A stretch of 64,000 nucleotides of DNA from Planctomycetota bacterium. Lineage in GTDB: Bacteria; Planctomycetota; SZUA-567. The stretch is from NCBI GenBank assembly GCA_031254915.1, contig JAIRTL010000005.1, forward strand, positions 1 to 64,000, written 5' to 3'. Positions 8,715-24,836 of this stretch are shown in pieces (position 1 is the first letter of the stretch; each line of letters begins with the position of its first letter). A program made the translations under genes and the position numbers. The notes beneath the pieces were generated by a model. That model was not told the origin of the DNA. It worked only from the letters and a program-made list of their open reading frames with translations, and ran no database searches.

Positions 8715-9848
8715 TCATGCTAAATCGACCAGGACGCTGTCCGCCACAGGGTAGGCCGCTTTCGTCAAACGGAGGCATTTCCGACCGTTTCGCCTGTACC
8801 ATTCCAGCAATCCGGCCGCCAAAAGATGCGGTAGTTCACGTTCATAGAGTTTTTCAATACGATACCCAGTTTTTTCAGCGAATAAATCGGCTTCTATCCC
8901 TTCAGCCAGGCGAAGCCAAAAAATGGCTGTCTCTTTCGCCTTTTCATATCGCGGCAGGATTTCCCCGCCCTCTGTCGCGTCTTGCCCCTTCGCGATGCAA
9001 TCAAGGTATTGTTCCAGGTTTTCCGTATTCCAGTACCTTCTTCCGCCGACATGGGAATGCGCCGCAAGTCCGATGCCGTAGTATTCCCCGCCCCGCCAAA
9101 TCGCACAGTTATGGCGGCAGTGAAATCCGGGTTTCGCGTAGTTGCTGATTTCGTAATGGTCGAGGCCCGCTTTCCGCATCGCGGTTCCTGTCGCGTCCCA
9201 AAATGAACGCGCCTCATCGTCGCCCGGCATCTTCAAACCATTGTGTTCCATGATCGCGGCCAACCGGCTTTCCGGATGCAGCGTTAGATTGTAACAGGAA
9301 ATATGGGCAACGCCAAGATTTGCACCCGTTGCTATATCCAGCCCAAGCGATTCCAGGGTTTGTCCCGGCCAACCGCAGATAAGGTCGATATTGATGGAGT
9401 GGAAACCTGCTTTTACGGCGTCGGAAATACTCTGTCTCGCCGTATCCGCATCATGCGCCCGGCCAAGCAACCGCAATCCGTGCGGGGAAAACGTCTGGAC
9501 GCCGAACGAAAGACGTGATATCCCTAAATCGCGAAGGAGGACGAGTTTTTCGGTATCGGTTGATTCAGGATTCATTTCAATCGTTGTTTCCGACGCTTCC
9601 ACGATTGGAAGCATGGAAAGCAATCGACGCAATTGCGGTATGGATAAAACCGACGGCGTGCCGCCGCCAATGAAAATGGTCGAAAAGGCGGCGCCCCGCA
9701 AACCGGCGCGTTCATATTCCGCCCACAGCGCTTCAATATACGCGTCGGCAGGCATGGCCGAATACAGGCCGCTTGCGAACGCACAATAACCGCAACGTCT
9801 GGAGCAAAAAGGAATATGAATATACAAGCCGGGACAATTACCCGCCAT
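8715..9848 (-). CDS. hemW: Radical SAM protein HemW (haem chaperone, coproporphyrinogen oxidase-like)
   Basis: 377 residues. LYIHIPFCSRRCGYCAF contains the CxxxCxYC 4Fe-4S motif of the HemW/HemN family, and the HemW-type HNCAIWRGGEYYGIGLAAHS is also present (family consensus HNxxYW). HemW proteins bind haem and act as haem chaperones; they are not genuine coproporphyrinogen dehydrogenases. I chose the ATG at 9848 (MAGNCPGLYIHIPFC) because it begins just before the family core. It overlaps the end of dciA by 11 bases. Third gene of the dnaN-dciA-hemW unit. Confidence 0.9.
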   Translation of the reverse strand: MAGNCPGLYIHIPFCSRRCGYCAFASGLYSAMPADAYIEALWAEYERAGLRGAAFSTIFIGGGTPSVLSIPQLRRLLSMLPIVEASETTIEMNPESTDTEKLVLLRDLGISRLSFGVQTFSPHGLRLLGRAHDADTARQSISDAVKAGFHSINIDLICGWPGQTLESLGLDIATGANLGVAHISCYNLTLHPESRLAAIMEHNGLKMPGDDEARSFWDATGTAMRKAGLDHYEISNYAKPGFHCRHNCAIWRGGEYYGIGLAAHSHVGGRRYWNTENLEQYLDCIAKGQDATEGGEILPRYEKAKETAIFWLRLAEGIEADLFAEKTGYRIEKLYERELPHLLAAGLLEWYRRNGRKCLRLTKAAYPVADSVLVDLA

Positions 9849-10305
9849 GCCGTTTTCCGGGTTGGAATTTGATACGAAGAAGCGGCGTCGCCGCCTGCCA
9901 ATTATCGCGAAGATCCTTGACAACCGACTCGTAATGAAACTGCCGCAATTCCTGGATCAACGCCGAACTAAAAACATCGATCGTCAGGATGCCGCGTGAA
10001 AAGGATACGACTTTACTTTCGCCAGCCACTTCCGCGCCGACGGAGTCTTTCCAAAGGGTGCGAATTATTTGTATATCGGCAATTCGATTCTTGTTGAATT
10101 TCCGCACTTCCTTTGTAAGCCAGGTGGAAATCGGTTCCGGATTGGCTTTTTTTCGGACTCTTGTCTCCCGCCCGCCGTCTTTTTCGATTTCGGCGCTGAT
10201 TCGCTCCGCCGTCTTTCGCCTAGCGCCGTCAAGCCGCCTGATTGTTGTCTCGACGAACCATCGCCGCCATTCCGGATCCGGCTCGTCGCGTATTTTTTTC
10301 GGCAT
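9838..10305 (-). CDS. dciA: DUF721 protein, DciA-type helicase loader
   Basis: 155 residues. The C-terminal half has the DUF721 pattern: IIRTLWKDSVGAEVAGESKVVSFSRGILTIDV followed by SALIQELRQF. DciA is the replicative helicase loader of bacteria that lack DnaC/DnaI, and DUF721 genes often sit near dnaN/dnaA, as here. The N-terminal 60 residues are charged and not recognisable. I chose the ATG at 10305 because AAGGGGA lies 7 bases before it; an ATG at 10311 and a longer frame to 10386 are alternatives. It lies between dnaN and hemW in one operon. Confidence 0.82.
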   Translation of the reverse strand: MPKKIRDEPDPEWRRWFVETTIRRLDGARRKTAERISAEIEKDGGRETRVRKKANPEPISTWLTKEVRKFNKNRIADIQIIRTLWKDSVGAEVAGESKVVSFSRGILTIDVFSSALIQELRQFHYESVVKDLRDNWQAATPLLRIKFQPGKRHGG

Positions 10306-10397
10306 TTCCATTCCCCTTGCATCCGTTATTCGCCCCCTCCTTTCATGGGGATACAGGAAGCCGGGGCTTTTTTTCCGGGCTTTCATGCCTGAATCCG

Positions 10398-11486
10398 TCA
10401 GCGATTGATCGGCATAATGACATACAGAAAATCGCCGTTGTCGATTCTTGCCGGGTTTTCCGCACCATTGTACTGCATTTCAACCGTTTCGTCGTCAATT
10501 GCCTTGAGGGCATCGATAACGAACTGATAATTGAACTTGATTTCGCATTCATCACCCCGCACCTCGGCGTCGAGGATCACAATTCCCTCGCCGTTTTCGC
10601 TTTTGGCGGAAAGCGACAGCGTTCCGGGGGAAACGCCAAAGAGAATGGCCCGCGTTTCCTCTGAAGCGACCAAGCCTATACTGTGGAGGTTTTTGATGAG
10701 TTCGTCGCGATTGACCACGAAGCGGCTGTCGCTCTTCGGCGGGATGACGTCTTGATACCTCGGAAACATGCCCTCCACCCGGCGCACCGCCAACGTGGCG
10801 GTCGGCGTCCGCGCCAAAAGCTCATTCGGGGTGATATTGATTTCAATCACATCCTTGCCGATGGCGAGGCGGGAAAGGATGTTCATACCCTTTGTTAGAA
10901 TAATCCCCTCGGAGACGCTCGCATCGGGATTGCGGATCTTCTTCTTCACCAACGACAACCGGTGCGTATCGGATGCGACAAAATCGCAGATGTTATCCTT
11001 AATATTGAGAAATATGCCGTTCAAGGCATAACGAGTGTCGCCCTTTGCAGTCGCAAAGATGTTTTTTTGCACCGCATCGTTGAAATCGTCGCCATGAATG
11101 AATATCGCGCCCTCGCTCTTGAAATCCGAAATAGCGGGATAATCGATCACGTCGGCACCGGGAAGCTGGAATCGACCGAATTTGGTCTTGACGATCAACT
11201 TGAGATCTTCTATCTCGAGCTTCAGATCGTCGCCGCCAATTCCCTTGACGATGGCGTTGAGCCGCGACGCGGGGAGAAGAACGGATATGGGATCCTTGAG
11301 ATCCGATACCTCCAGATGGATGCGAAGACTGATTTCCAGATCCGTGGCGGAAAGGGTGATTCCAGCTTCGCCGTCGGATTCGAGAAGCAGGTTTTGCAAA
11401 ACCGGTCGAGCCGAACGTTCCGGCACAATGGAGCTGATGAACGACAGCGCTTCGGAAAACATGATTTTGTTGATGGAAAACTCCAT
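10398..11486 (-). CDS. dnaN: DNA polymerase III beta subunit (sliding clamp)
   Basis: 362 residues, full length for three-domain beta clamps. It begins MEFSINKIMFSEALSFIS and ends VIMPINR, the typical clamp C-terminus, with SDTHRLSL in the middle domain. It encircles DNA and tethers the polymerase. The start is fixed by AGGAGG 7 bases upstream. No dnaA or recF is adjacent; instead dciA and hemW follow. Upstream lies the AT-rich gap with parS sites, and genes on its far side read the other way. Confidence 0.97.
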   Translation of the reverse strand: MEFSINKIMFSEALSFISSIVPERSARPVLQNLLLESDGEAGITLSATDLEISLRIHLEVSDLKDPISVLLPASRLNAIVKGIGGDDLKLEIEDLKLIVKTKFGRFQLPGADVIDYPAISDFKSEGAIFIHGDDFNDAVQKNIFATAKGDTRYALNGIFLNIKDNICDFVASDTHRLSLVKKKIRNPDASVSEGIILTKGMNILSRLAIGKDVIEINITPNELLARTPTATLAVRRVEGMFPRYQDVIPPKSDSRFVVNRDELIKNLHSIGLVASEETRAILFGVSPGTLSLSAKSENGEGIVILDAEVRGDECEIKFNYQFVIDALKAIDDETVEMQYNGAENPARIDNGDFLYVIMPINR

Positions 11487-11580
11487 TGAAGCCTCCTATA
11501 AAAAAGATCATGCTCCGCGTCATGATGCGCCAGCGGCGCGTTTAAAAGACCACGGGCATTTGAAGGGGCCTATTATGGTC

Positions 11581-11693
11581 TATACCGCGCGTAACCTAAC
11601 ACTGTGAAAATAGGATTTGGGGGATTGCCTTGTTCCACATTCGCTTCCCGAGTGCGTTGCTCGCCGCATACGGTCCGGGGAATCACGATTTCA
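11581..11693 (+). repeat. R1 dispersed repeat, copy upstream of dnaN
   Basis: Diverged copy of R1. It keeps the ordered landmarks tata, GTGAAAATAGG, TTTGGGGGATTGCC, TTGTTCC and GGGGAATCACGA seen in the better copies at 46.9 and 36.7 kb. It lies between dnaN and the AT-rich tract. Confidence 0.6.
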
Positions 11694-11972
11694 AGATGCG
11701 AGCAGTCCAATAGCGTATTGTAATCGGTATTTTTGGAAAGGCAACATGAAGTCGATGTTTTTTACTCTTAAATAAAGTAAAAATATAATTATGGATCATT
11801 CTTTTGTTAATTGTGATGCAACGTAATTATAACAGATGAGTTACAATAAATTTCCGACAATCGATTCCTTGTTGGTCTTGTTGAAACAACCGGGGTTGTG
11901 CATCCAGAGATCTTCGCGGTATTGTCGTCCCGGTTTCCATTGGTTGACATGGATTCGACAGGAATTCGACAA

Positions 11973-12002
11973 GACGGCATGTTTCACGTGAAACATGCCG
12001 TC
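11973..12002. promoter_or_regulatory. parS: parS site, perfect 30-bp palindrome
   Basis: The core TGTTTCACGTGAAACA (11980-11995) is an exact match to the bacterial chromosomal parS consensus bound by ParB. The flanks extend the symmetry to a perfect 30-bp palindrome (GACGGCAT on the left, ATGCCGTC on the right). It lies 0.5 kb from dnaN. No parA or parB is in the window. Confidence 0.92.
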
Positions 12003-12028
12003 TCCGGCGGTATGGATATTTAGTTCTC

Positions 12029-12102
12029 GGTATCCAGTTGTGATTCCCTTACTATGCGTGAACTGTGCGTGGTCTTGCAATGGCTGGCGCATTTTACCCA
12101 AA
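12029..12102 (-). repeat. R1 tail fragment
   Basis: It matches the outer half of R1 in reverse: CAGTTGTGATTCCCT...ACTGTGCGTGG...AATGGCTGGCGCATTTTACCCAAATG. The same ordered blocks occur at 47040-47100 and 29430-29490. Its end abuts the second parS-like site. Confidence 0.65.
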
Positions 12103-12118
12103 TGTTTCACATGAAACA
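12103..12118. promoter_or_regulatory. parS: Second parS-like site, one mismatch
   Basis: TGTTTCACATGAAACA differs from the parS consensus at one position (A for G at position 9). It lies 123 bases from the perfect site, and such clustering supports function. Its left half overlaps the end of an R1 fragment. Confidence 0.75.
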
Positions 12119-12225
12119 TAGGGAAGAAATACATATACTTATAGGTTTTATAGTATGTCTTGCCGCATCCTCCCGCTCCGTTTTCATTCCGGGATCGGCG
12201 CATGCTTTATCTATGGAGAATCAGA

Positions 12226-13065
12226 GTGCGCACAATCATGTTTTTCTGCCTTTTCTTTATCCTCGCAGCAGTTTCAGCCATCGCCATGGAACGTGGCTTC
12301 TCCTGGACCTATGCGCCTTCCCAAGGCGATACTATCCCGGCAAACCTGGCGTCGTTTTCCTTGTCGAAGTATCTCGAGTCATGCGAGGTGAACCGACCGG
12401 AAATTCTCAACGAAGTGAAGTCGCAGCTTGCGCGAGGGCAGTATTACCGCAAGCGCACCATCGATCAAAAGGGCAAGGGAACGCTGCTTACTATTTATGT
12501 CGATAGCGACAATATCCTGCATATTGTCACCCACCGGAATGAAACCTGTCCCGATTGCAAAGGCACAGGTAAGCGCGGCGAATTGTTCAGCGGCGTACCG
12601 ACGGGGATAACCCGCAATGTCGGAGTCCGCTTCAGATGCCTGAAATGCGACGGCGAGGGCGAATTAAAGAATTACACCAATGAGCGGTATTTCACCCTCT
12701 CGCCGGAGGACTATGAGGACATCGAATCCGCGCGGCGCATGTATGCGCAAAAAGCCTATGAAAACGCGCCGCCGCAATCGCACGAGTGGGTGGAGCGCCT
12801 AGCGTCCAACAATCCACGCGAGCGCCTTGCCGCCTGTGTCTGGCTCGACCAGAATTACGTCAGAGCCGGAACATTCTTTCAGGACATCATGCCGATGCTT
12901 CGGAAGGCCCGCTATCACGAAGCGAATGAAAAGCGGGAAATGCTGGTGTGGCAATTCTGGGCCGGCAAGGATCTTCCCAACGAAAGAAAACGGTATTATT
13001 ATCGCGTATACGCCGACTCGAAATCGGGAAAAATCGTCCGGAAAGGATTCTATCCGGAAAAATAA
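12226..13065 (+). CDS. Secreted protein with CxxCxGxG zinc-binding motifs, function unknown
   Basis: 279 residues from a GTG start. I chose GTG 12226 because GGAGA lies 7-8 bases upstream and it gives a clean signal peptide (RTIMFFCLFFILAAVSAIA). ATGs at 12202 and 12238 are alternatives. In the centre are CPDCKGTGKRG and CLKCDGEGE, a DnaJ-like zinc-binding pair about 30 residues apart. The rest is charged and rich in Tyr and Arg, with no recognised fold. If exported, the cysteine pair may hold a metal or form disulfides in the envelope. It is the first gene reading right from the parS region. No function can be assigned. Confidence 0.75.
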   Translation: MRTIMFFCLFFILAAVSAIAMERGFSWTYAPSQGDTIPANLASFSLSKYLESCEVNRPEILNEVKSQLARGQYYRKRTIDQKGKGTLLTIYVDSDNILHIVTHRNETCPDCKGTGKRGELFSGVPTGITRNVGVRFRCLKCDGEGELKNYTNERYFTLSPEDYEDIESARRMYAQKAYENAPPQSHEWVERLASNNPRERLAACVWLDQNYVRAGTFFQDIMPMLRKARYHEANEKREMLVWQFWAGKDLPNERKRYYYRVYADSKSGKIVRKGFYPEK

Positions 13066-13312
13066 AGCTGTTGCTTGTTGGATTTTTGCGTGTATATTTG
13101 TGCCACACTCGAACTGTTTCAGGTATCCCGTATCTGTAACTCGATGCTCTAAACAGACTTTTCATGAGTGCGTCACTTTGCCCACAACGCCACCATCCAA
13201 TGCCGCGACGGGAAAAAGTGAAACATGACGCTGTAAAATCGTTTGGAGCCAATATCCTTCGCAGGTGATGAAAAGTGGATTTTCCCGTTCGGAAAAGAAA
13301 AAAGGAGAACCC

Positions 13313-13912
13313 ATGTTTGCATTGGCGATCAATGGCAGCCCGAGAAGGGAAGGCAATACGCACGCGCTTCTTGAAGCCGTCCTTGCGCCGTTGCAGCGAG
13401 CCGAGTGGAAGACGGAATTTTTTCAGTTGGGCGGGAAAAATATACGCGGTTGCACCGCATGTGGTAAATGCTTCGAGGCGAAGAATCATTCCTGCATGAT
13501 ACCGAACGATCCATTCAACGGACTGTATGCCAAAATTCTTGAGGCTGAAGCGGTGATCATAGGAACGCCGACCTATTTTTCCGGCGTCAGTCCGGAAGTG
13601 AAAGCGCTTCTCGACAGAACCGGATTCGTCTCCATTGCCAACGGCGACATGCTTCGCGGAAAAATAGGCGCCGCCGTGGTCGCGGTCCGGCGCGGCGGCG
13701 GCATCCATGCTTTTGATACCATCAACCACATGTTTCTAATGACCCAGATGATCGTCCCCGGTTCATTGTACTGGAATCTTGGCTTCGGCCTCGACCGGGG
13801 CGAAGTGAAGGACGACGAAGAGGGATTGGCGAACATGAAGAACCTGGGCGAAACAATCGCCTTGCTTGGACTCGCACTTGTGCCGCTGCGCAATCAATGG
13901 CCGAAACGCTGA
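13313..13912 (+). CDS. NAD(P)H-dependent FMN reductase / iron-sulfur flavoprotein family
   Basis: 199 residues. The N-terminal flavodoxin-like FMN loop is FALAINGSPRREGNTHALLEAV. A cysteine cluster GCTACGKC plus a later cysteine (SCMIPND) resembles iron-sulfur flavoproteins, and GTPTYFSGVSPEVKALLDR is the second FMN-contacting segment. It probably reduces quinones or other small acceptors using NAD(P)H. The ATG at 13313 is fixed by AGGAG 7 bases upstream. The 250-base gap before it has no recognised element. The GGDEF gene starts 19 bases after its stop. Confidence 0.88.
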   Translation: MFALAINGSPRREGNTHALLEAVLAPLQRAEWKTEFFQLGGKNIRGCTACGKCFEAKNHSCMIPNDPFNGLYAKILEAEAVIIGTPTYFSGVSPEVKALLDRTGFVSIANGDMLRGKIGAAVVAVRRGGGIHAFDTINHMFLMTQMIVPGSLYWNLGFGLDRGEVKDDEEGLANMKNLGETIALLGLALVPLRNQWPKR

Positions 13913-13931
13913 CTTTGGCGAAAACGCTCAC

Positions 13932-15746
13932 ATGGAACCGAACCTTCTTTTCAAGAAAATTTTCGAATCGTTGCGCTTTCCGGTCATAGCGTGCCGTAGT
14001 TGCGCCGGTTTGCCGGTGATGTATATGAACGCGGCGGCGAGATTATTCCTTTCGCCCTCCCTCTCTATCCGGAAATTGAAGGGAAAAACCAGGATAGGCG
14101 ATCTTCGCGGTTTTCTGTCCTTCAAACACGAAGACGATTATGCCTTTTTTACAGACGCTGTCCTGAAATCGGGCGTTGTCGACAATTTTCATACCTCCGT
14201 CTATTCCTTTGAAAACGAACCCACGTCCACTACCGTGATCGCCAACTCGGTGGCGCTCGGCGAAGAAGAGTATGCGATAATTTACCTGGTCGAATCGGAT
14301 CTCGAATCCTCGCGGGAGGAAGGCATAACCGAGAAGCTGCTTTCGCAGATTCTTCATGAAGCGTATCACGAAGACAACATCGACAACACAATCCAAACCA
14401 TTCTCGCACTCGCAGGCAGGCATTCGAACGTCAGCCGGACCTATATTTTCGAGGACATTTCACCGGAGATGACGAGAAACACTTATGAATGGTGCGCTCC
14501 CGGCGTCGCGCCGGCCATCCAGGACCTGCAAAACCTGCGCAAGTCGGATTACAATTACGATGTGATCATGAGTACGTCCATGTATATCTACAGCGACACC
14601 CGCGATCTACCGGAGAGTGACCGCGAAATCCTCTATGACATGCAGGGGATCAAATCCATCGCCATTCTGGCGCTGTTTCATCACAACAAACCGCTCGGGT
14701 ATATCGGCTTCGACGATACGGTCAATTTCCGCAAATGGACCAGGAACGATATCCGCATCCTCGAAGGCATCGCCAGCATCGTATCCGCCCTCATCGGCAG
14801 GCGCAATGCGGAACGCGAGATCGAACGCAGCCGCCAGATGATGCAAACCATCACCGACAACCTCGACGACCTTATCTACGTCAACGATCTGGAAACAGGC
14901 GAGTTGAAATTCATCAGCAAATCTCTCGCCCTCATCCTGGGCATGCATCCAAACGATCTTATCGGTGGAAAGTGTTGGGAAGCGCTGCACGAGGGCCAAA
15001 CCGAGCAGTGTCCGTATTGCCCCATCCCCAAGCTGTACGACGAACACGGCAATTTCGTCAAAGAGAGTTACATCTGGGAGTTCCAGAACGTTATTAACGG
15101 CAAGTGGTATATGGTAAAAGACAACATTATTACTTGGATAGATGGCTATCCGGCGCATCTTGCGACAGCGGTCGACATCACCTACCGAAAGCAATACGAG
15201 GAACAGCTCAAATATTCGGCCTCGACCGACGCCATGACGGAAGTCTATAACCGCGAGTGGGGATACAACAAACTCAAGGCGATCATGGCCGGACACGACG
15301 ACGTCGTCTCGACGCAAAACACCCTTGCCTTCATCGATATCGACAACCTGAAAAACGTCAACGACTCCCTTGGCCACCAGATGGGAGATGAACTCATCAT
15401 CAATATGATCCAGAACATTTCCGCCTGCATCCGCAAGGAGGACGTCATTTGTCGCTGGGGCGGCGACGAATTCCTCCTCATCCTGCGATGCGACCTGGAC
15501 GTGGCGGAAAAGGTGATGGAAAAAATCCATTTCGCCATGGATCATTTCAATTATACGGAGGGCAAACCCTACACCCTTTCCGTAAGCGGCGGTCTTGTCC
15601 GCTTCGATCGCGGCGCGGGACTGGACGTGGACGAAATCATCGCCGAGGCCGACAGGCGCATGTACGAATTCAAACGCTTCAAAAAAGAGACGCAAATCGG
15701 CAGTCGCCGCTTTACGCAAATCCATCGCAAGCCAAATCCCTCCTGA
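13932..15746 (+). CDS. Diguanylate cyclase with PAS-GAF-PAS sensor region
   Basis: 604 residues, no membrane segment. Order: a PAS-like N-terminal region (about 1-125), a GAF-like domain (about 150-300), a PAS domain (about 310-430) carrying ECPYC-type cysteines (QCPYCPI), and a C-terminal GGDEF domain (about 440-595) with the intact signature RWGGDEF. It makes cyclic di-GMP. The PAS cysteines might bind metal or sense redox state (inference). The ATG at 13932 has a poor ribosome binding site and may be coupled to the flavoprotein upstream. It could be opposed by the HD-GYP regulator at 6.2-7.3 kb. Confidence 0.93.
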   Translation: MEPNLLFKKIFESLRFPVIACRSCAGLPVMYMNAAARLFLSPSLSIRKLKGKTRIGDLRGFLSFKHEDDYAFFTDAVLKSGVVDNFHTSVYSFENEPTSTTVIANSVALGEEEYAIIYLVESDLESSREEGITEKLLSQILHEAYHEDNIDNTIQTILALAGRHSNVSRTYIFEDISPEMTRNTYEWCAPGVAPAIQDLQNLRKSDYNYDVIMSTSMYIYSDTRDLPESDREILYDMQGIKSIAILALFHHNKPLGYIGFDDTVNFRKWTRNDIRILEGIASIVSALIGRRNAEREIERSRQMMQTITDNLDDLIYVNDLETGELKFISKSLALILGMHPNDLIGGKCWEALHEGQTEQCPYCPIPKLYDEHGNFVKESYIWEFQNVINGKWYMVKDNIITWIDGYPAHLATAVDITYRKQYEEQLKYSASTDAMTEVYNREWGYNKLKAIMAGHDDVVSTQNTLAFIDIDNLKNVNDSLGHQMGDELIINMIQNISACIRKEDVICRWGGDEFLLILRCDLDVAEKVMEKIHFAMDHFNYTEGKPYTLSVSGGLVRFDRGAGLDVDEIIAEADRRMYEFKRFKKETQIGSRRFTQIHRKPNPS

Positions 15747-15878
15747 CGAAGTCCCTTGCCTCGATCGCTGTTTTCTGCGAGAATCCGCTTTCGGGCGCGC
15801 GCCGATCGACACCCTTCGCGCGGCGCGGTTTCGCCTTGTCCGCAAGCGGGCGTTACGGCGGCGAATGCTGGGGCGCGT

Positions 15879-17183
15879 ATGAAAATCCTTTACCTTGTCG
15901 GCGGTAAAAGCGCGATAGGCGGCGGCGCCACTGTCCGCGACGCCATGTTCGTGCGCGGCCTCGCAGACGCCGGCCACGAGGTGGTCGCCCTTTCCGTCAT
16001 GGGTCAAGCCAGGGTGGAAGGTTCGGAAGAGGACTCGCGCCTCTTTACGCCGCTTGTCGGCGGCGGCGTATCGCATTTCTTTCCCGCCTTGTCGCGGATG
16101 CTGTCGGCGCTCGTTTCGTTGTGGCGACATCCCCGGCCGATACGGAGCCTCACCTCCTTCGCCGTCGGCGGCTATGTCGACCGCGCCGGTCCGGCGCTGG
16201 TGGGCATTCTCGCCGGCCGCGACAAAAACCTCCGCGACGATTTCGCGAAATGCATGGAGCAGGTTGAATCGAATCCGCCCAATCCGGACATCGTCGTTCT
16301 TTCCTCTCCGGTTCTTTCCGCCCTCGCCGAACCGTTGCGCGCCAATCTCGGCTGTCCCGTCGTCTGCCTTACGCAGGGCGCCGACAGGCATATGGAGTCG
16401 CTCGAAGAGCCGTTCCGGTCCGACGCCAGGAAGTTGGTGCGGCGCAACGCGAGGAACTTCGCCATCGCCGTGGCGACGAGCCGGCATTTCGCCATCCGCG
16501 CAACCGAATTCATGGCGCTCCCCGCGTCCCGCGTCAAGGTGGTGCCGCCGGGCATCGACGCCGAGGCTTTCGCCAATCCGTCGCCCCGCGTCCGTTCCCC
16601 GTTCGTCATCGGGTATTGCGACGGCATACGTCAGGAAAAGGGCCTCGACACCCTGGTGGACGCGCTCGATCAATTGATCAAAAGCGGCTCGACCGACGTG
16701 GAGCTGCACATTGCCGGAAAAATCGACGATTCCCGTTACTGGCAGCGAATCAAACGCCGTCTTGAATCGCCGTTGTTGAGCGGCAGGCACAAAGTCTACG
16801 GCGAACTCGGCCGCAAGGCGAGAAAGGAGTTCCTCGCCGGATTGAGCGTTTACGCGACGTCGACGCGCGAACCGGAATCGAAAGGACTCGTCATTCTCGA
16901 AGCCATGGCGCTGGGTGTTCCGGTGACCGCGCCCTCGTCCGGCATTATCCCGGAAATTTTCCAGCTCGTGAACGGCGGCCTTCTCGTATCCTCGGAGGCG
17001 CCGGTATGGATGTATGCGCAGGCGTTCGAGCTGCTGGCATCAATGCCGGAGACGGCGGACAGCCTGGGGAAAAACGCCGCCAGGGGCGTGGCGGAACATT
17101 TTTCCATCAGTCGCGCCGCCGAAAGACTGTCGAACATCCTTGTTGCGGCGGTGCGGGCCGGGGAGGCCGCGAAACCCGCATGA
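15879..17183 (+). CDS. Glycosyltransferase family 4
   Basis: 434 residues, GT-B fold. The N-terminal LVGGKSAIGGGATVRDAMF is the acceptor-side glycine loop. In the C-terminal half VVPPGIDAEAF, GIRQEKGLDTLVDAL and the EX7E-type ESKGLVILEAMALGVPVTAPSSGIIPE bind the nucleotide sugar. Such enzymes build LPS, capsule or glycolipid sugars; the sugar cannot be told. The ATG at 15879 begins just before the family core; the upstream open frame is not family-like. It follows the GGDEF gene by 132 bases and precedes the DUF4340 gene. Confidence 0.9.
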   Translation: MKILYLVGGKSAIGGGATVRDAMFVRGLADAGHEVVALSVMGQARVEGSEEDSRLFTPLVGGGVSHFFPALSRMLSALVSLWRHPRPIRSLTSFAVGGYVDRAGPALVGILAGRDKNLRDDFAKCMEQVESNPPNPDIVVLSSPVLSALAEPLRANLGCPVVCLTQGADRHMESLEEPFRSDARKLVRRNARNFAIAVATSRHFAIRATEFMALPASRVKVVPPGIDAEAFANPSPRVRSPFVIGYCDGIRQEKGLDTLVDALDQLIKSGSTDVELHIAGKIDDSRYWQRIKRRLESPLLSGRHKVYGELGRKARKEFLAGLSVYATSTREPESKGLVILEAMALGVPVTAPSSGIIPEIFQLVNGGLLVSSEAPVWMYAQAFELLASMPETADSLGKNAARGVAEHFSISRAAERLSNILVAAVRAGEAAKPA

Positions 17184-17260
17184 CGCGACCGGCGCCCGCA
17201 TGCGGCAAACATGCTCCGCCCGGCCCGGACTTCGGGCCGAAGCGCACAGAGGAGACGTCT

Positions 17261-19651
17261 ATGAAGTATCGCTCCCTCCTTATTCTCGTCGTCATTATGG
17301 CGGCGATCGTCATTCTTGGCGTCAACTTCAAGCCGAAACCTCCGGGCGGCGCGGTGAAAAGCGAACCGCGGCGGAGCGGGAAGACGGCCGAAATCGCCTT
17401 TGCGCCCGCCGTCCTCGAAGCGGAGGGGGTGGATTCAATCGGGATTTTCGATTCCGCCGGCGCGGCCGTGGCGACATTGGCGAAAACGGGCGGCGCGTGG
17501 CGGCTTGTCCATCCACGAGGCATTCCAATCGATTCCGCAAAAGCGGCGCGCCTTGTCGATGATGTTTTCATCGCTCTTGCCGTTCCCGGGACGGTTCCCG
17601 GAGAGAATCCGGAGAAAACCGGCCTTGCCGACGGACAAGGCGTTTCCATTGCGCTCGCCGACACCGAGTCCGGCGTTTCCGATAGCGTGCGGATAGGGTT
17701 TTCCCCTCCCGGCCAGCCTGAAAAAACCTGGGTCATGCGCAGCGACGGAACGGTTGTTCTTGCGCCGGCCGATCTGCGCGGCGATATCGGTTTGTGGAAG
17801 AACGCTCCCGGCGCGAGGCCGAACATCGAGTGGTGGCAGAAGCGCGCCGTGTTCGGCGTCGATCCGGAACGCATCGTCGGGATCGATCTGGAAAGCGCGT
17901 CGCCGCGCCTGACGCTGGCGAAGGAAACGCCGGGCTGGAAGGTCGTCGCCGGCGGGCCGGCGGGCCATGCCGCAAGGCTTGACCAGAGCGCGGCGTCGGA
18001 ATGGATCCGGACGTTGTCGTGGATTGTGCCGGGAACCTCGCTCGCGGACGCGGACGCGCCGAAAACCGGTTCGCGGGGATCGGTCGTCCGCCTGACTCTT
18101 GATGACGGCTCGGTGGTCGAATTCGCCGCCGCGCCCGAAGCCGACGGCTCGGCGCTCGCGACTGTTTCGACCGTTCCGGATGTCGTGTTCCGGATGCCGT
18201 CCTGGCGGTTTGGCCGCTATTTCAACCGGTTTTTCGCGCTTTTCCCCGATGCGGATCCGCGTTTCGATGTGCGCGAAGTCCGCTTCGTCGATCTTCGTGG
18301 CGACGGGGACGGCGTCAAGTTCGCGCTCCAGGGCGGCGCGTGGTCGGCGGTGGGCGTGCGGTATCCGCTGCGCATCGCCAATCTGCGGCGCTGGATCGCC
18401 GCGGCGTCGGACTGGAAGCCCGAGGCGTACATCGGCGGCGACCGCCAGACCGGAGCCGGACAGTTCGCACCGACGTTGGAAATCAGCCTCGCGTCCGGCG
18501 TGGTTCGCCAGTACCGGTTGTTCGGCGGCGACAAGTCCGGCGCGATGCGCCCTGTGCTTGTCGATGGCGCGAATCTGTTTTCAACCCCGGCGGATAAGGC
18601 GGAAAAATTGTTCCCCCCGGCGTCCACGCTGTTTTATCTCGGCGCGGCGATACCCGCCGCCGCTCCGGAAGCTGTGACGGAACTGTCCGTCGCGGGCGCG
18701 GCATTGAAATATCCCGCCCGTTTGCATACCGACGGCACGGGTCGCTTCGTGATTGATACCGGCGATGAAACAGCCGCGATCACGCCGGAGACGGCGGCGG
18801 TTTTGTTTGAAGGACCGCTCTCCTGGCACGTCGCCGATTTCCACCCCGGCGGTCAGTCCGAATTCGCCTCGCCCTACCTGTCCATAATCGTTCGGACCGC
18901 CGACAAATCCCACGGATTGATCCTCGGAGTTCCGGTCGGCGGATATGTCGCCGTCCTTCGCGACGACGGCGTCTCGTTCCGTATCGGCGCAGACAGGGTG
19001 GATGCCTGGCTGTCCGTATTTAAAAATGTTACGCCGGTTGAACCGTTCCAACCCGTCGGTGCGGAGATGGAAGCGCCGTCGCCCGGTCCTTTCGGCGAAC
19101 CGCCGGTTCCAGAACCCGGGGAGCTCGATAGTCTTCCGAACATGATTCTGGAGCGCGACCGGGTAAAGCCTGTAAAGCCTGCGGATTTCGGGGCGGACGA
19201 CTTGCCGGAGGTCATGGAATACACCGGTGAACCGGAAAATCCGGAAGCTCGGGAAACGGCGGAAAGACTGGAAACGCTGGAACCAAAGGATGACTCGACG
19301 GACCAGGACGCGGAAGGTTCTTCATCGGCCGGGGAAATGGAAACAACGGGAAAAATCCTGGAGCTGGAGAATGCCGAAAAGTCTGGCGGCGATGATAGAG
19401 AAGCTGACGCCGCCGCCGCGATTGCGACGTCCGCTGTCGCCGGTCCGTCCGCTGCGGCGGATGAAGGTCCGACCGAAGGGGCGATTGATGCAAAACCGCT
19501 TGCCGATGAGAATCGGAAAGCGGATGCGGTTGCGGCGCCGGAAGCGATCGGGAAAGACGAAACAGACCAGGGAAACGCCGAAGAAGCGGAAGCAGACGCT
19601 TATAATCCGAAACAAGAGACGGCGGAATCTCAAGCGGACGTGGTATACTGA
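17261..19651 (+). CDS. Membrane-anchored DUF4340 protein with acidic tail
   Basis: 796 residues. An N-terminal hydrophobic anchor (about 5-21, SLLILVVIMAAIVILG) is followed by an extracytoplasmic region with repeated DUF4340-like units. The pattern of a glycine-rich W, then P...D...V..L, then GL is clear at about 65-150 and recurs later. From about residue 610 to the end the chain is Pro, Glu, Ala and Asp rich with no fold visible. DUF4340 proteins often accompany GldG-type ABC transport genes, but none is here. The ATG at 17261 has AGGAG at 7 bases. Function is unknown; an envelope role is inferred. Confidence 0.75.
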   Translation: MKYRSLLILVVIMAAIVILGVNFKPKPPGGAVKSEPRRSGKTAEIAFAPAVLEAEGVDSIGIFDSAGAAVATLAKTGGAWRLVHPRGIPIDSAKAARLVDDVFIALAVPGTVPGENPEKTGLADGQGVSIALADTESGVSDSVRIGFSPPGQPEKTWVMRSDGTVVLAPADLRGDIGLWKNAPGARPNIEWWQKRAVFGVDPERIVGIDLESASPRLTLAKETPGWKVVAGGPAGHAARLDQSAASEWIRTLSWIVPGTSLADADAPKTGSRGSVVRLTLDDGSVVEFAAAPEADGSALATVSTVPDVVFRMPSWRFGRYFNRFFALFPDADPRFDVREVRFVDLRGDGDGVKFALQGGAWSAVGVRYPLRIANLRRWIAAASDWKPEAYIGGDRQTGAGQFAPTLEISLASGVVRQYRLFGGDKSGAMRPVLVDGANLFSTPADKAEKLFPPASTLFYLGAAIPAAAPEAVTELSVAGAALKYPARLHTDGTGRFVIDTGDETAAITPETAAVLFEGPLSWHVADFHPGGQSEFASPYLSIIVRTADKSHGLILGVPVGGYVAVLRDDGVSFRIGADRVDAWLSVFKNVTPVEPFQPVGAEMEAPSPGPFGEPPVPEPGELDSLPNMILERDRVKPVKPADFGADDLPEVMEYTGEPENPEARETAERLETLEPKDDSTDQDAEGSSSAGEMETTGKILELENAEKSGGDDREADAAAAIATSAVAGPSAAADEGPTEGAIDAKPLADENRKADAVAAPEAIGKDETDQGNAEEAEADAYNPKQETAESQADVVY

Positions 19652-19760
19652 CAGGAGTCGATACGCGGTTGATTGCCGGCTGGCAATGGGTATACTCGGG
19701 AGGTGAACGGGCGGCGAAACATGAAATTGAGAGTCGCGGCCACTGATCGGGGGTGGGTTG

Positions 19761-21944
19761 ATGGGCGATATAAACCAAGATGACATCGATAAACTGTTGG
19801 CCGGCGCTTTGAGCGACGGCGCCGCCCCCGCCGAGCAGGAGAACGCCGCCGGACCGTCCGCCGGCGAACAGGCGGATGGTCCGGTTGGACAGGACGATAT
19901 CGACGCCATGTTCGCATCGCTCGGCGACGCGCCCGCCGTTCCCGCCCCCGAGCCCGAATCCGCAACGACGGCTCAGGAAGCCGCACCCGGGCATGACGAC
20001 GGCGGAGCCGGTATCGCCAACCAGGACGATATCGACGCGCTGTTCTCCACCATCTGCGGCGACGACGATAGCCCGGCGCCGAAACCCGAACCGCCTTCCG
20101 AACCGACGCCCGAGCCCATGGCCGAAGCCGCTGCGCCGGTTCCCGACGCTCCTGAAGCTCCCGAATTCTCCGATGCCGACGACGCCATGGGCGACCACTC
20201 CGACCTGACCGCGCTGCTTGATTCTCTCGACGCCGATGCGGAAAAGGAGATCAACCGAGGCACAGCGGCGCAGGACGCTCCGGACACCGAAGGTTTGAAC
20301 GGACTTCTGTCCGCGATCGCCGGGAACGCATCGCCGCCCACGCCGTCGTCGGCTTCCGCCCCGCAAGGGACGGCCAGCGACACGGTGCGGGTCGATACGG
20401 TCGATATGGACGAACTCCTGCGCCAGATCAGTTCCGCCGCGCCGCCTGAGGCGGAATTGCCGTCCGCGAAAAATCCAGCCCAGAATGCGTCGCCGGGCTT
20501 GTCGGCGGAACGATTCGATTCCACCGTCGTCCTTCCGCAACCCGCTTTCCCCGATGCGCATGCCGGCGGACAACCACCGGCGGTCGAACCGACTGCGGTT
20601 CCGGCCGCGCCCGCGTCCCCCGCGCCATCGGCGATGGCGGCGTTGCCGTCGTTTGTCCCGCCGGCTTCGCCAGGGCCGGCTCCCGAGAGCCTTTCCGTCA
20701 TGGCGAGCGCCGGCGAAGTCGAGAGCATGGCGGGACAAATCTCAGGTATGCTAGGCCAGCTTTCCGAAAAGACGCAACGCTATATGCAGGCCTGGATCAC
20801 GGCCGATGCGGAGGCGAAAGGCCTGCGCGGCAGGCTTCTGGCCGAAGAACGGCTGCGCGCCGCCGTAGGCGGGGAAAAGGACGCGCTCCAGGCGGAGGTC
20901 GAGCAATTGCGCGGCAACCTCGCCAAATTGGAAGGCGAGAAGCTTGGGCTCGAAGAGGCGCGTCGCAACGCGGAAGCGTCTCTTCATGCGCGCATCCGGG
21001 AGCTGGAATCGCGTGCCTCGATGCTCGATTCCGAGGTCGAATCGCTCAAGGACGAGCTTACCCGCACCCGCACCCAGGCGACGGGGGTCGATATCGAAAG
21101 CCGCCGGTCGCGCTTCGAGGCGGAACGCCTCAAGAACGAGGTGGAATCGGAGCGGATGGAGCGCTTGCGCATGCAGCGGGCGCTCGAAAACCGCGAAAAG
21201 GAATTGCAGGCGGTTCAGGCCCAGGCCTCCGGTCAGGCGTCCTCCCTGTTCATCGACGAGCTTCACCGCTTGGTGCGCAGGCTTGAAAGCGAACTGGACA
21301 GCCGAACGTCGGGCGCGCACGAGGCGCTCAAGCAGCTCGACCGGCTGGATGTTTCCGAAAACATGGTTCCCGCCGTCGCCAATCTCCGCGCCGCCCTGAT
21401 GCGCGCGGTCGGTGCCGACGCCGACGACGCCGACGACGCGATCAAGTCGCTCGGCCGCGAAGCGGCGCGGGTACAGGGCCCCAACGCCCTCGAACCGGGG
21501 AAAACCGAGATGCTCTCGTTCGAGACCGCGCTGTCCACCTACAACCTCGGCGCCGCCCTCGACGTCGCCGGGGCGCTGCTCCGCGAGTTCAAGGCCACGC
21601 CAGGCGCGCTTATGCGCCGCGTTTACCAGTGTCCGGCGTTGCGCCGTCCGGAAGTGTCGGAACATCTCGTCGATCTCGCGCGCCTCCTTGAAGGATTGCG
21701 CACTGTCCAGGAATCGGCCGACCGGACGCGCGGCCGCGAAAGCGCCGAATCGGAGGTGTTTTACGTCCAGATGTTCGACTTCCTCCACAATCTGGTCAGG
21801 CTCAAGATCGTCACCCGGCTGACAGGAGACCCCTGGCGGCTGTTCCTCGATCTTCGCGGCAGGTTCAGCTTCGTCACCTCCGACAAGCAGTGGTCCGAAT
21901 ATCGCGACGGCGTGCTGAATGCGGACAAAACCAGGACGGCGTAA
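19761..21944 (+). CDS. Coiled-coil protein with three FliM-like QDDIDxLL motifs
   Basis: 727 residues. The N-terminal 100 residues contain three copies of a motif (NQDDIDKLL 5-13, GQDDIDAMF 43-51, NQDDIDALF 87-95) closely resembling the SQxEIDALL peptide at the N-terminus of FliM/FliN-type proteins, which in FliM binds phospho-CheY. Looser copies follow (DLTALLDSL, VDMDELLRQI). Long Pro/Ala-rich linkers connect them. A coiled coil spans about 330-500 and a helical domain without recognised homology fills 510-727. A TTG lies just before the chosen ATG; GGGGGTGGG precedes both. No flagellar gene is in the window. It may be a scaffold with several docking peptides (inference). A terminator follows. 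Confidence 0.7.
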   Translation: MGDINQDDIDKLLAGALSDGAAPAEQENAAGPSAGEQADGPVGQDDIDAMFASLGDAPAVPAPEPESATTAQEAAPGHDDGGAGIANQDDIDALFSTICGDDDSPAPKPEPPSEPTPEPMAEAAAPVPDAPEAPEFSDADDAMGDHSDLTALLDSLDADAEKEINRGTAAQDAPDTEGLNGLLSAIAGNASPPTPSSASAPQGTASDTVRVDTVDMDELLRQISSAAPPEAELPSAKNPAQNASPGLSAERFDSTVVLPQPAFPDAHAGGQPPAVEPTAVPAAPASPAPSAMAALPSFVPPASPGPAPESLSVMASAGEVESMAGQISGMLGQLSEKTQRYMQAWITADAEAKGLRGRLLAEERLRAAVGGEKDALQAEVEQLRGNLAKLEGEKLGLEEARRNAEASLHARIRELESRASMLDSEVESLKDELTRTRTQATGVDIESRRSRFEAERLKNEVESERMERLRMQRALENREKELQAVQAQASGQASSLFIDELHRLVRRLESELDSRTSGAHEALKQLDRLDVSENMVPAVANLRAALMRAVGADADDADDAIKSLGREAARVQGPNALEPGKTEMLSFETALSTYNLGAALDVAGALLREFKATPGALMRRVYQCPALRRPEVSEHLVDLARLLEGLRTVQESADRTRGRESAESEVFYVQMFDFLHNLVRLKIVTRLTGDPWRLFLDLRGRFSFVTSDKQWSEYRDGVLNADKTRTA

Positions 21945-21985
21945 TGCCCCCCCCGGCAATGTCGCGGTGCAACCCGATGGTTCCC

Positions 21986-22019
21986 CAAAGCCATCTTCCG
22001 CACGGGAGAGGGCTTTTTT
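21986..22019 (+). terminator. Terminator of the coiled-coil gene
   Basis: Hairpin AAAGCCATCTTCC / GGGAGAGGGCTTT with one G-A mismatch and a 4-base loop, followed by TTTTTT. It lies 41 bases after the stop codon. Confidence 0.75.
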
Positions 22020-22126
22020 CGCGCCTGACCTTTTCATGGCCGCGCACGGCGGGCAAATTTAAAACGCACTGTCGAATGGGGGACGATGCCGTTTATGGGA
22101 TAATCACGCCTCTTTTCAAAATGTGC

Positions 22127-22158
22127 CGGCGGTTTATTTTCCTTTCTCCAAAAGTCCA
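22127..22158. repeat. R4 repeat fragment
   Basis: GGCGGTTTATTTTCCTTTC followed by TCCAAAAGTCCA aligns with the right arm of the R4 element at 6140-6170. The 414-bp gap 21945-22358 holds the terminator, this fragment and a possible -10 (GGATAAT, about 22098); otherwise it is AT-rich with nothing recognised. Confidence 0.55.
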
Positions 22159-22358
22159 TGTTTTGAAAATAGCATTGAATTATCGGAATATGCGCACTTT
22201 TCTTCGCCAATTCCTCCGATTTTAAGAAAGAAACCAGGTGCGACGGGTAAATAAATGGTGCGGCCTGCTTTTTTCGCGGTCACTCCGCGCATGATAAAAG
22301 CGGCGCCGCCCAGGCGATAATCGCCCCGAACGCGGCGGATTCTGATGGAGGAAGCACG

Positions 22359-24836
22359 ATGAGAGGATTTGCGATCAAAACCCTGTTGCTCTTTGCGGCG
22401 CTGGCGGTCGCCATCGGTGGAGACGCCTCTGCCGCAGCGCGCAAAAAGAAACCGCCGCCGGACGCCAGGGCGAACAAGGACAAAGCCTACTCCCTGGACG
22501 ACATCATGAAGGCGCCGGAGCAGTACCTCGAGCAGGAGGTATTTTTCTACTGCCGCTTCGCCACCACCACCTCGCTTTATAAGAAGGTGAACACGCCGTT
22601 CAACCCGAACGAGTACTCGAATTTCGCGGTCTGGCCCGACAAGGCGATTCTCTGGGACAAGGAAGGGGCGAGGAACGTCCTCCCAACCCTGTACGTTTCG
22701 AAGAACGACGCGGAATCGGTCGACATCCTTCGGATGCTCGAAAAGTACGAACTGATCGCCGTCTCGGGAACGGTGAAAAACAAGTACGCCAAATTCCCGT
22801 GGATCCTCGTCGACAAGATCGAGCGCGTCGAATTGCCGCGCGACCGACTCTGCGACACGACCGTCCAGCACATGCAGAACGGCTCCGAAGCGCTTGCCTG
22901 CGGCAACGGCGGCGCGGCGGCGCGGCATTTCGAAACCGCCCTCAAGTTCGGCCTGCCGCCGGAATACTATATCCGCGCCTACGAGCAACTGGCTAAAAGC
23001 TACCTTCTCATCGACGATCTGCCCAAGGCCCAGGAATATCTCCGCCTTGCCACGGAAAAGGGGACCAGCGACGCCGCTCTCCATCTCGCCCTCGCCGACG
23101 TCTGCCTGCGCATGGACGAACCGGAAGAGGCGATCGCCCATTGCGTCTTCGCGATCGAAAAGTCGGGCAAGCTTCCCCAGGTCTACGGCATGAAGGGTGA
23201 AGCAAGGGCGATCATGGGCGATTTCATCACCGCCTTCAATGACCTCAACGTCGCCGCCGGAACGCCGGGGATCACGCCGAGGGAACGCGCCATGGTGGAT
23301 GTGCGCCGCGCCCGCATCTATATCCGCACCGACCGGCACGCCGACGCCGCCCGCGTTTACGCCGCGGTCACGGAGCCGGGAGGGCCGCTCGCGGGCGAGG
23401 CGTGGCTGCATAACGAGGTCGGTCTGTTTTATGAAAGCATCTACATCAACACCGGCGATCCGCGCTATCTCGACAGCGCCTATACCGCCTACGAACAGGC
23501 CGTTTCCCTGAACCGCCTCGAACCCGGCTACATGTACAATCAGGCCGAGGTGGAATTCAGGCGCCAGATCCTGTCGGAAACGCCGAATTTTGAAAAAGTC
23601 CATTCGCTTCTCGAAGAGATCGAACAGGTCGAGCCCGATTACGTGCCCGGCCGAGTCCTCCTCGGCAGAGTGCTGTTTCACGAAGGCAGGGGCGACGAGG
23701 CGGATCAACTGTACCACACTTTCGCGGACCGGATCGGCGACGACCCGATGGCCCTGCTCGCTCTCGCCGAAGCGTACATAGATCAGGGGGACGGAGGTTC
23801 CGCGTCCATGCTCATCGGCCGCGCCTTCGCCATCCAGCCCTGGAATCTGCGCCTTAAAGCGCTTGGCGAAAGCTTGATGACGACCTCGTCGACGGTCAGG
23901 ACGCCGTGGTCGCCCAAGACCGTCCCCGCGCAATCGCGTCAGGCGGTGCCGTACCAGCAGCAGACGCCCTCCCCCGCCGCTCCCATTTCAGCCCCGCCCG
24001 CGCCGGGAATGGCTCCGCAACCGGAAAGCTATTCGGAAGGCTATCCGGAAAGCTATGTCGATTCCAGCGGAGAGGTGATCACCCTCCGGCCGGGCGACGT
24101 AATCCGCATCGAAAGAAACGGCAGGGAAATGACCATCGCCGCCGGCGACCTCCAGGCGTCGGCGCCTCCGGCATCGTACGCGGGAGGCCGCATGGGCGGC
24201 TATCCGGCAGGCGAAGTGTACCTGGATGAATATGAAAACCATCAGAACGCCCGGGAGCAGCCGGTGCGTCCGCTCCAGCAGCGGTATGGCCGGCGGCAGG
24301 GAACGCGCATGCGTCCGGGCGCGTCGCCGCTGGACCTCGGATACTACCCCCGCGAGGAACCGATGGCGCATTCGCAGCTGGACGAGCATGAAATAGGCTA
24401 CGTCGTCTCGGACACGGCCTACGCCTCCGTTCCCGCCGGCGCAGGAACGGCGAACGACAACGCTCCCCGAATACCGCCGCCGTTTTCGTTTACCCCGGAC
24501 GAGTCGCCGGTGATCATCGACGGCTATGTCTCCAGCCCGGGGGACGAACTGGCGGCCATGCCAGTCCGGAACGCGAATCTGCACCGCGGCATCCAGAAGC
24601 GCCGTCCGGCGGAGATCATCGAGGAAGACGCAGTGCATCTCGCGCCGGGAAACGACGACATGTTCGCGATGGCCGCTCCGGCGCCGACCACGGTCCGGGG
24701 CGTCGAATCCGTCCGCCCGCCGCTTCGCGCCGAAGTGGTTTTGCCCCCTCTGGCGCGCGGCATCGGCCAGGACGCCACGCCCCCGTCGGCGCAGTCGATC
24801 ACCTCGGAAAGCGGTCTCCTGACGCCGAGGTGGTAA
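22359..24836 (+). CDS. Secreted TPR-repeat protein with low-complexity tail
   Basis: 825 residues. A signal peptide (1-26, ending GDASAA) is followed by a globular region (about 45-165) and tetratricopeptide repeats (about 170-500), seen as regular helix pairs such as YEQLAKSYLLIDDLPKAQEYLRLA. From about 505 the chain is rich in Pro, Ser, Tyr and Arg without fold, except a short segment VITLRPGDVIRIERNGREMTI that looks like a beta-strand module. It is probably a periplasmic or surface scaffold. GGAGGAAG sits 6 bases before the ATG. The gene stands alone between terminators. No specific function can be given. Confidence 0.78.
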   Translation: MRGFAIKTLLLFAALAVAIGGDASAAARKKKPPPDARANKDKAYSLDDIMKAPEQYLEQEVFFYCRFATTTSLYKKVNTPFNPNEYSNFAVWPDKAILWDKEGARNVLPTLYVSKNDAESVDILRMLEKYELIAVSGTVKNKYAKFPWILVDKIERVELPRDRLCDTTVQHMQNGSEALACGNGGAAARHFETALKFGLPPEYYIRAYEQLAKSYLLIDDLPKAQEYLRLATEKGTSDAALHLALADVCLRMDEPEEAIAHCVFAIEKSGKLPQVYGMKGEARAIMGDFITAFNDLNVAAGTPGITPRERAMVDVRRARIYIRTDRHADAARVYAAVTEPGGPLAGEAWLHNEVGLFYESIYINTGDPRYLDSAYTAYEQAVSLNRLEPGYMYNQAEVEFRRQILSETPNFEKVHSLLEEIEQVEPDYVPGRVLLGRVLFHEGRGDEADQLYHTFADRIGDDPMALLALAEAYIDQGDGGSASMLIGRAFAIQPWNLRLKALGESLMTTSSTVRTPWSPKTVPAQSRQAVPYQQQTPSPAAPISAPPAPGMAPQPESYSEGYPESYVDSSGEVITLRPGDVIRIERNGREMTIAAGDLQASAPPASYAGGRMGGYPAGEVYLDEYENHQNAREQPVRPLQQRYGRRQGTRMRPGASPLDLGYYPREEPMAHSQLDEHEIGYVVSDTAYASVPAGAGTANDNAPRIPPPFSFTPDESPVIIDGYVSSPGDELAAMPVRNANLHRGIQKRRPAEIIEEDAVHLAPGNDDMFAMAAPAPTTVRGVESVRPPLRAEVVLPPLARGIGQDATPPSAQSITSESGLLTPRW

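Follow-up and report, generated by a model that had tools for sequence, protein, structure and literature searches.

The 0.67-kb gap that separates the sliding clamp gene dnaN from a divergent gene, here called orf301, very probably serves as both a replication origin and a centromere in a planctomycete whose dnaN locus carries no dnaA. We consider it reasonably likely that this region has retained the dnaN side of an ancestral oriC together with its parS sites, that the initiator gene once adjacent to dnaN (dnaA1) has been lost, and that a second DnaA protein (DnaA2) now initiates through a diverged box, TGTYGAAT. The DNA analyzed (the window, 64,000 nucleotides) comprises positions 1-64000 of the 83,653 in contig C15 of G000, a planctomycete MAG of 2.75 Mb in 137 contigs that is 87% complete. 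Relatives were gathered through DnaN, and all close ones are draft MAGs. Six syntenic genomes were compared: G000, G001, G003, G009, G013, and G015. No relatives were returned when viral contigs were scanned with the family DnaN profile, or by an initial scan of genome contigs with one single sequence. The features considered below are as follows.

8715-9923, minus strand: hemW, radical SAM heme chaperone (TIGR00539, E 3.9e-80)
9838-10323, minus strand: dciA, helicase operator/loader (PF05258, E 2.2e-7, ORF read from 10386; syntenic homologues)
10398-11486, minus strand: dnaN, sliding clamp (TIGR00663, E 1.2e-62; three Pfam clamp domains)
11700-11860: AT-rich tract between dnaN and the box doublet, a candidate for the DNA unwinding element
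11953-11971, minus strand: candidate initiator-box doublet, TGTCGAAT-TCC-TGTCGAAT, 11-bp register, found by k-mer enrichment
11980-11995: parS site 1, exact consensus TGTTTCACGTGAAACA, at the center of a perfect palindrome (11972-12003)
12103-12118: parS site 2, TGTTTCACATGAAACA, one mismatch
12160-13065, plus strand: orf301, CxxCxG motifs, start codon uncertain, syntenic homologues
C10 15750-16898 and C20 1-405: dnaA2 of G000, beside dapF

The identities that a sequence-only reading of this DNA had given to the three minus-strand genes are confirmed by the family matches listed. The protein encoded by orf301 matches no family in NCBIfam or Pfam, and its homologues (49-76% identical) occupy the same position in G001, G003, G009, G013, and G015. 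At this locus, orf301 always diverges from dnaN, across two genera. An ORF on the minus strand at 11841-12203 reads through parS (as FHVKH) and was treated as spurious, and no Rfam families were found at positions 11000-14000 of the window. The switch in gene polarity proposed earlier holds on the right, where the ORFs from 12160 to 24836 are all on the plus strand and dapB follows on the minus strand. It does not extend far on the left, where the minus-strand block consists only of hemW-dciA-dnaN and is followed by genes of mixed polarity (proB and glmM plus, L21 minus). The genes dnaA, gyrB, parA, and parB do lie away from the locus, on C20 plus C10, C1, C78, and C111, respectively, and no sequence in G000 scores above the family cut-off for recF.

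The centromere is marked by two parS sites whose starts are 123 b apart, and both had been recognized from the letters of the sequence, as had the perfect palindrome around site 1, which spans 32 bp rather than 30. A search of the whole assembly for further copies, as had been proposed, returned only these two sites at ≤2 mismatches, and window shuffles yield 0.15 matches at ≤3 mismatches, such that the occurrence of the 16-bp consensus of chromosomal ParABS centromeres is beyond chance. Site 1 is preserved beside dnaN in G001, with near-variants in G003, G009, G013, and G015, while the variant seen at site 2 also adjoins dnaN in G003 and G013. Taken more broadly, parS or parS-like sites are located upstream of dnaN in these five relatives and in G004 and G008. 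In the genomes of g3, the palindromes have diverged to GGTTCCACGTGGAACA or TGTTTCATATGAAACA, and in the more distant G012, G014, and G011 the dnaN-dciA pair is present without parS in the upstream DNA examined. Most relatives have zero to two parS sites. The genome G007 has 13 exact sites, located on C2, C15, C31, C45, C51, C53, C76, C81, C106, and C113, and four of them form a cluster at the C106 end.

The proteins expected to act on these sites are encoded in G000. The ParB on C111 carries PF02195, PF17762, and PF23552, corresponding to the N domain, the HTH, and the C-terminal dimer domain. Alignment to Spo0J/ParB structures indicates that its HTH keeps the arginine (gvSRaqv) and the glycine (lpaGsar) equivalent to Caulobacter R173 and G201, and not the Q and R of Noc. 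Jalal et al. reported that this R and G are invariant among ParBs that bind parS, whereas Noc has other residues there (PMC7383237). By its domains and specificity residues, the predicted protein is of the parS type, and with a Soj-type ParA on C78 (PF13614, E 4.5e-51) the annotated parABS gene set is complete. A genome with no parB, the outcome that had been named as arguing against an origin here, is therefore not what is found. As in other chromosomal ParABS systems, a consensus parS occurs with ParA and a canonical three-domain ParB. A difference is that parA and parB are each on separate contigs, neither of which is the parS contig. A second protein with a ParB_N domain (G000:C36 446-2161, L004; 571 aa) has no recognized ParB HTH and possibly derives from a plasmid or phage. 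Similar long proteins are present in several relatives.

Between dnaN and the parS sites lies the AT-rich tract noted previously, whose positions 11751-11850 are 77% AT, the highest value for any 100 bp of the window. By its AT content, this tract is a candidate for the unwinding element of a bacterial oriC. The arrangement is conserved beside replication genes: the block in which orf301 diverges from parS and dnaN-dciA-hemW is kept in five relatives (G001, G003, G009, G013, and G015), whose hemW products are 45-52% identical to that of the window and whose gaps contain parS or parS-like palindromes, from one to several per gap. In G004, dnaA1 is located between dnaN and parS, and the order is dnaN, a TGTTGAAT doublet, dnaA1, canonical boxes, and parS. 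We regard this as the probable state before dnaA1 was lost.

No canonical DnaA box (TTATCCACA) occurs at ≤1 mismatch in 11487-12159, which agrees with the earlier remark that no good box is visible, and the gap holds no canonical cluster of the kind expected of an oriC. That reading had asked whether the initiator-binding site is divergent or elsewhere, and a candidate answer is the diverged TGTYGAAT doublet beside parS. The tandem repeat TGTCGAATTCCTGTCGAAT at 11953-11971 lies 8 bp from parS, with a degenerate third box copy at 11942-11950; two copies and a degenerate one are few for an oriC. K-mer enrichment was conducted de novo on the six intergenic regions, using 459 kb of the same six genomes as background, and produced two families, namely pieces of parS and TGTTGAAT/ATTCAACA. 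The latter occurs 10 times in 5 genomes versus 0.04 expected (~250-fold enriched). The copies are direct repeats in an 11-bp register. The window uses the TGTCGAAT variant only, and both variants occur once in G001.

When 41 whole genomes were searched for the exact doublet TGTYGAATNNNTGTYGAAT, five exact matches were obtained, all upstream of dnaN (G000 C15:11953-11971, G001, G004, G009, and G015). It adjoins a parS-like site at 2-8 bp in four of these five, and in G004 it lies between dnaA1 and dnaN. The rest of the G000 genome contains no further exact doublet, and one-mismatch matches are scattered among the 41 genomes. The word thus appears to be a repeated, lineage-specific box confined to the putative oriC locus. 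Two syntenic genomes, G003 and G013, have no exact doublet and carry looser GTTGAA pairs only. Canonical boxes are present in the noncoding origin region of all four genomes with dnaA1 (two to three canonical-like boxes each at ≤1 mismatch, versus 0.15-0.58 expected) and in none of six without it, whereas TGTYGAAT is present in 6/6 genomes without dnaA1 and in 1/4 with it. These box counts are descriptive rather than a test, given that the motif, region limits, and genome set were chosen after the sequences had been viewed; the doublet search across the 41 genomes provides a more independent check.

At 50-200 bp upstream of dnaN, relatives also share a conserved tract of TAG repeats (TAGTAGTTATAGTAGTAG-like) that resembles DnaA-trios (L125, L126, L127, L129, and L173; genomes G003, G013, G009, G004, and G007). 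DnaA-trio arrays are located ≤16 bp from the boxes and on the right strand (PMC8287927, PMC8235120). The relatives' repeats are far from the boxes and opposite in polarity to the doublet, and we make no claim that they are DnaA-trios. Neither a TAG-repeat tract nor a DnaA-trio array is evident by eye in the window.

The only DnaA in the 87% complete G000 assembly matches residues 1-119 (C20) and 126-506 (C10) of the intact G001 protein, and these two matches represent one gene split by contig ends rather than two separate DnaAs. Its product carries PF11638 (domain I) on C20 and PF00308 (AAA+ domain III) and PF08299 (domain IV HTH) on C10, so domains I, III, and IV are all present and contiguous against the intact protein. 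The gene adjoins dapF in G000, G001, and G004. Four genomes, G004, G007, G008, and G017, additionally have dnaA1 next to dnaN, with the canonical RDHST motif in its product; no dnaA1 was detected in g3 or in the genus of the window. A tree built from 64 planctomycete DnaAs places the dnaA1 of this family inside a phylum-wide canonical clade (100/95) and DnaA2 outside it. Because the tree separates the two in this manner, their duplication is old, and a recent duplication was rejected. Most of 116 planctomycete genomes encode at least two DnaA C-terminal domains.

The base contacts made by Escherichia coli DnaA with its box involve R399, P423, D433, H434, T435, and H439 (PMC7561715). In G000 DnaA2, the corresponding changes are P423A, D433S, T435A, and H439S, with only R399 and H434 kept. 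The DnaA of Thermotoga maritima likewise lacks these residues and uses its own box (PMC10316083), such that an altered recognition motif (here RSH for RDH) is paired with a lineage-specific box in both cases. The two systems differ in box sequence and lineage, and the pairing was proven experimentally in Thermotoga and is read from sequence here. Given the changed contact residues, the co-occurrence of the boxes, and this precedent, we infer that TGTYGAAT is quite probably the DnaA2 box if the region is indeed an origin plus centromere. Diverged recognition motifs, such as GGKNHTTV, GNKNHATV, and GGRNHSTV, are seen in second planctomycete DnaAs across the phylum, which suggests that an altered box specificity of this second protein may extend throughout the Planctomycetota.

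It is also conceivable, if unlikely, that the region is an origin and centromere in which TGTYGAAT serves a dnaN regulator or a nucleoid protein, while DnaA2 uses weak boxes that escape recognition. The window has just two good copies of the word, the assignment to DnaA2 is a deduction from sequence, and the origin gaps of some relatives (G007, G008, and G017) have no TGTYGAAT despite their DnaA2 homologues. However, the doublet is flanked by parS and the AT-rich tract, at 0.3-0.5 kb from where dnaN starts, and its direct 11-bp register is one that tandem DnaA boxes can adopt (PMC8287927). Moreover, the word appears where canonical boxes have been lost and the recognition surface of DnaA has changed.

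Quite improbable, in our view, is an arrangement in which the region comprises merely a parS centromere and the dnaN promoter, and the origin is at dapF-dnaA2 or elsewhere. Origins are often beside dnaA, and the dapF-dnaA2 gap of G000 is AT-rich and ~350 bp long. Also, the GC skew of the window's own contig is not decisive: in this fragmented, weak-skew genome the best break is at 26 kb (p 0.15), there is no significant break at 12 kb, and we consequently set skew aside as an origin locator for G000. The pooled skew of the syntenic relatives is weak as well, and in 17 20-kb stretches sampled from the class relative G024 neither dnaN/parB nor dnaA coincides with a clear switch. In G004, however, the same dapF-dnaA2 linkage exists, while the skew flips from -0.035 to +0.055 at 10 kb of the contig, where dnaN, the doublet, and dnaA1 reside (block-permutation p 0.0005). 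Furthermore, C20 and C10 have no parS, doublet, or canonical box near dnaA2, and in G008, which is strongly skewed, positive values persist throughout the dnaA2 locus. The skew flip in G004, the positive arm at dnaA2 in G008, and the parS sites are the reasons that we favor the dnaN gap as the origin. The original proposal of an origin region at this position is thus supported by parS-dnaN synteny, by ParA and a parS-type ParB, by the AT-richest tract, and by the G004 flip. It is very improbable that dnaA1 has only escaped assembly in incomplete MAGs and that the origin is an ordinary, slightly rearranged one, even for an 87% complete genome whose close relatives are all drafts, given that six genomes have an assembled dnaN locus with orf301 at the position that dnaA1 occupies in relatives, that none of the six has a second full DnaA, that G006 (92% complete) also carries DnaA2 alone, and that canonical boxes vanish in step with dnaA1.

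If the dnaN gap is the origin, then oriC and the ParB centromere would be fused within it. The ancestral order would have been dciA-dnaN, the AT-rich tract with its boxes, dnaA1, and then canonical DnaA boxes with parS, as still seen in G004. Loss of dnaA1 and its canonical boxes would have left the boxes on the dnaN side only a few base pairs away from parS. DnaA2, as the only DnaA left, would bind the 11-bp-spaced doublet, oligomerize toward dnaN, and open the AT-rich tract, after which the helicase would be delivered with the help of DciA. ParB is predicted to load at both parS sites and, with ParA, would segregate the new origin copies.

Such an origin would resemble those of the dnaA-dnaN type (Bacillus subtilis, and the oriC2/basal unwinding system of Helicobacter pylori) in having an AT-rich tract beside dnaN, parS nearby, and tandem boxes in 11-bp register on the far side of the tract. 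It differs in that dnaA is gone from the locus, the boxes are TGTYGAAT-like and not TGTGGATAA, and a correctly oriented DnaA-trio array is not recognized. Candidatus Kuenenia, another planctomycete, has three dnaA genes, and its origin as defined by skew is marked by the one adjacent to dnaN (PMC7709395). Unlike Kuenenia, the lineage described here has lost that gene, and the origin locus appears to persist.

DnaA2 proteins of this family have ~25 extra C-terminal residues, mostly closing in Q-x-x-L/I-F (L005, L065, L071-L079, L082, L084, and G000 C10/C20). The tail ends in RQPSLF in G000 and in QPGLF, QGSLF, QGNLF, QSELF, or QAEIF in others, and is absent from dnaA1 products and from the other planctomycete DnaAs sampled. 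We take this ending to resemble the pentapeptide by which bacterial proteins bind the sliding clamp. Clamp-dependent inactivation in RIDA is mediated by Hda (PMC9690074), likewise a DnaA-family protein with a putative clamp-binding peptide; in contrast to DnaA2, which has domains I, III, and IV plus the C-terminal QxxLF tail, Hda is without DNA-binding domain IV. Our guess is that, if the tail binds DnaN, an Hda-like inactivation could be built into the initiator. Under the terms searched, we found no literature combining DnaA, clamp binding, and planctomycetes. A tentative and rather doubtful extension is an initiator swap, in which the lineage deleted its dnaN-adjacent DnaA and an old paralogue with a TATTCAACA-like word (not TTATCCACA) and a putative clamp-binding tail took over the ancestral origin. 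If so, a single protein could initiate replication and also be inactivated by the loaded clamp, with no need for Hda.

Few regulatory words in bacteria are as conserved as DnaA boxes, and origin finders depend on these boxes as well as on dnaA. In planctomycetes of this kind such prediction would fail, and the locus described here indicates where to look instead. The lineage also offers a natural before-and-after series, from dnaA1 plus dnaA2 to dnaA2 only, across which dnaA1, its recognition surface, and the canonical boxes are lost in concert. Because they are, the co-evolution of initiator and origin should be directly testable in these bacteria.
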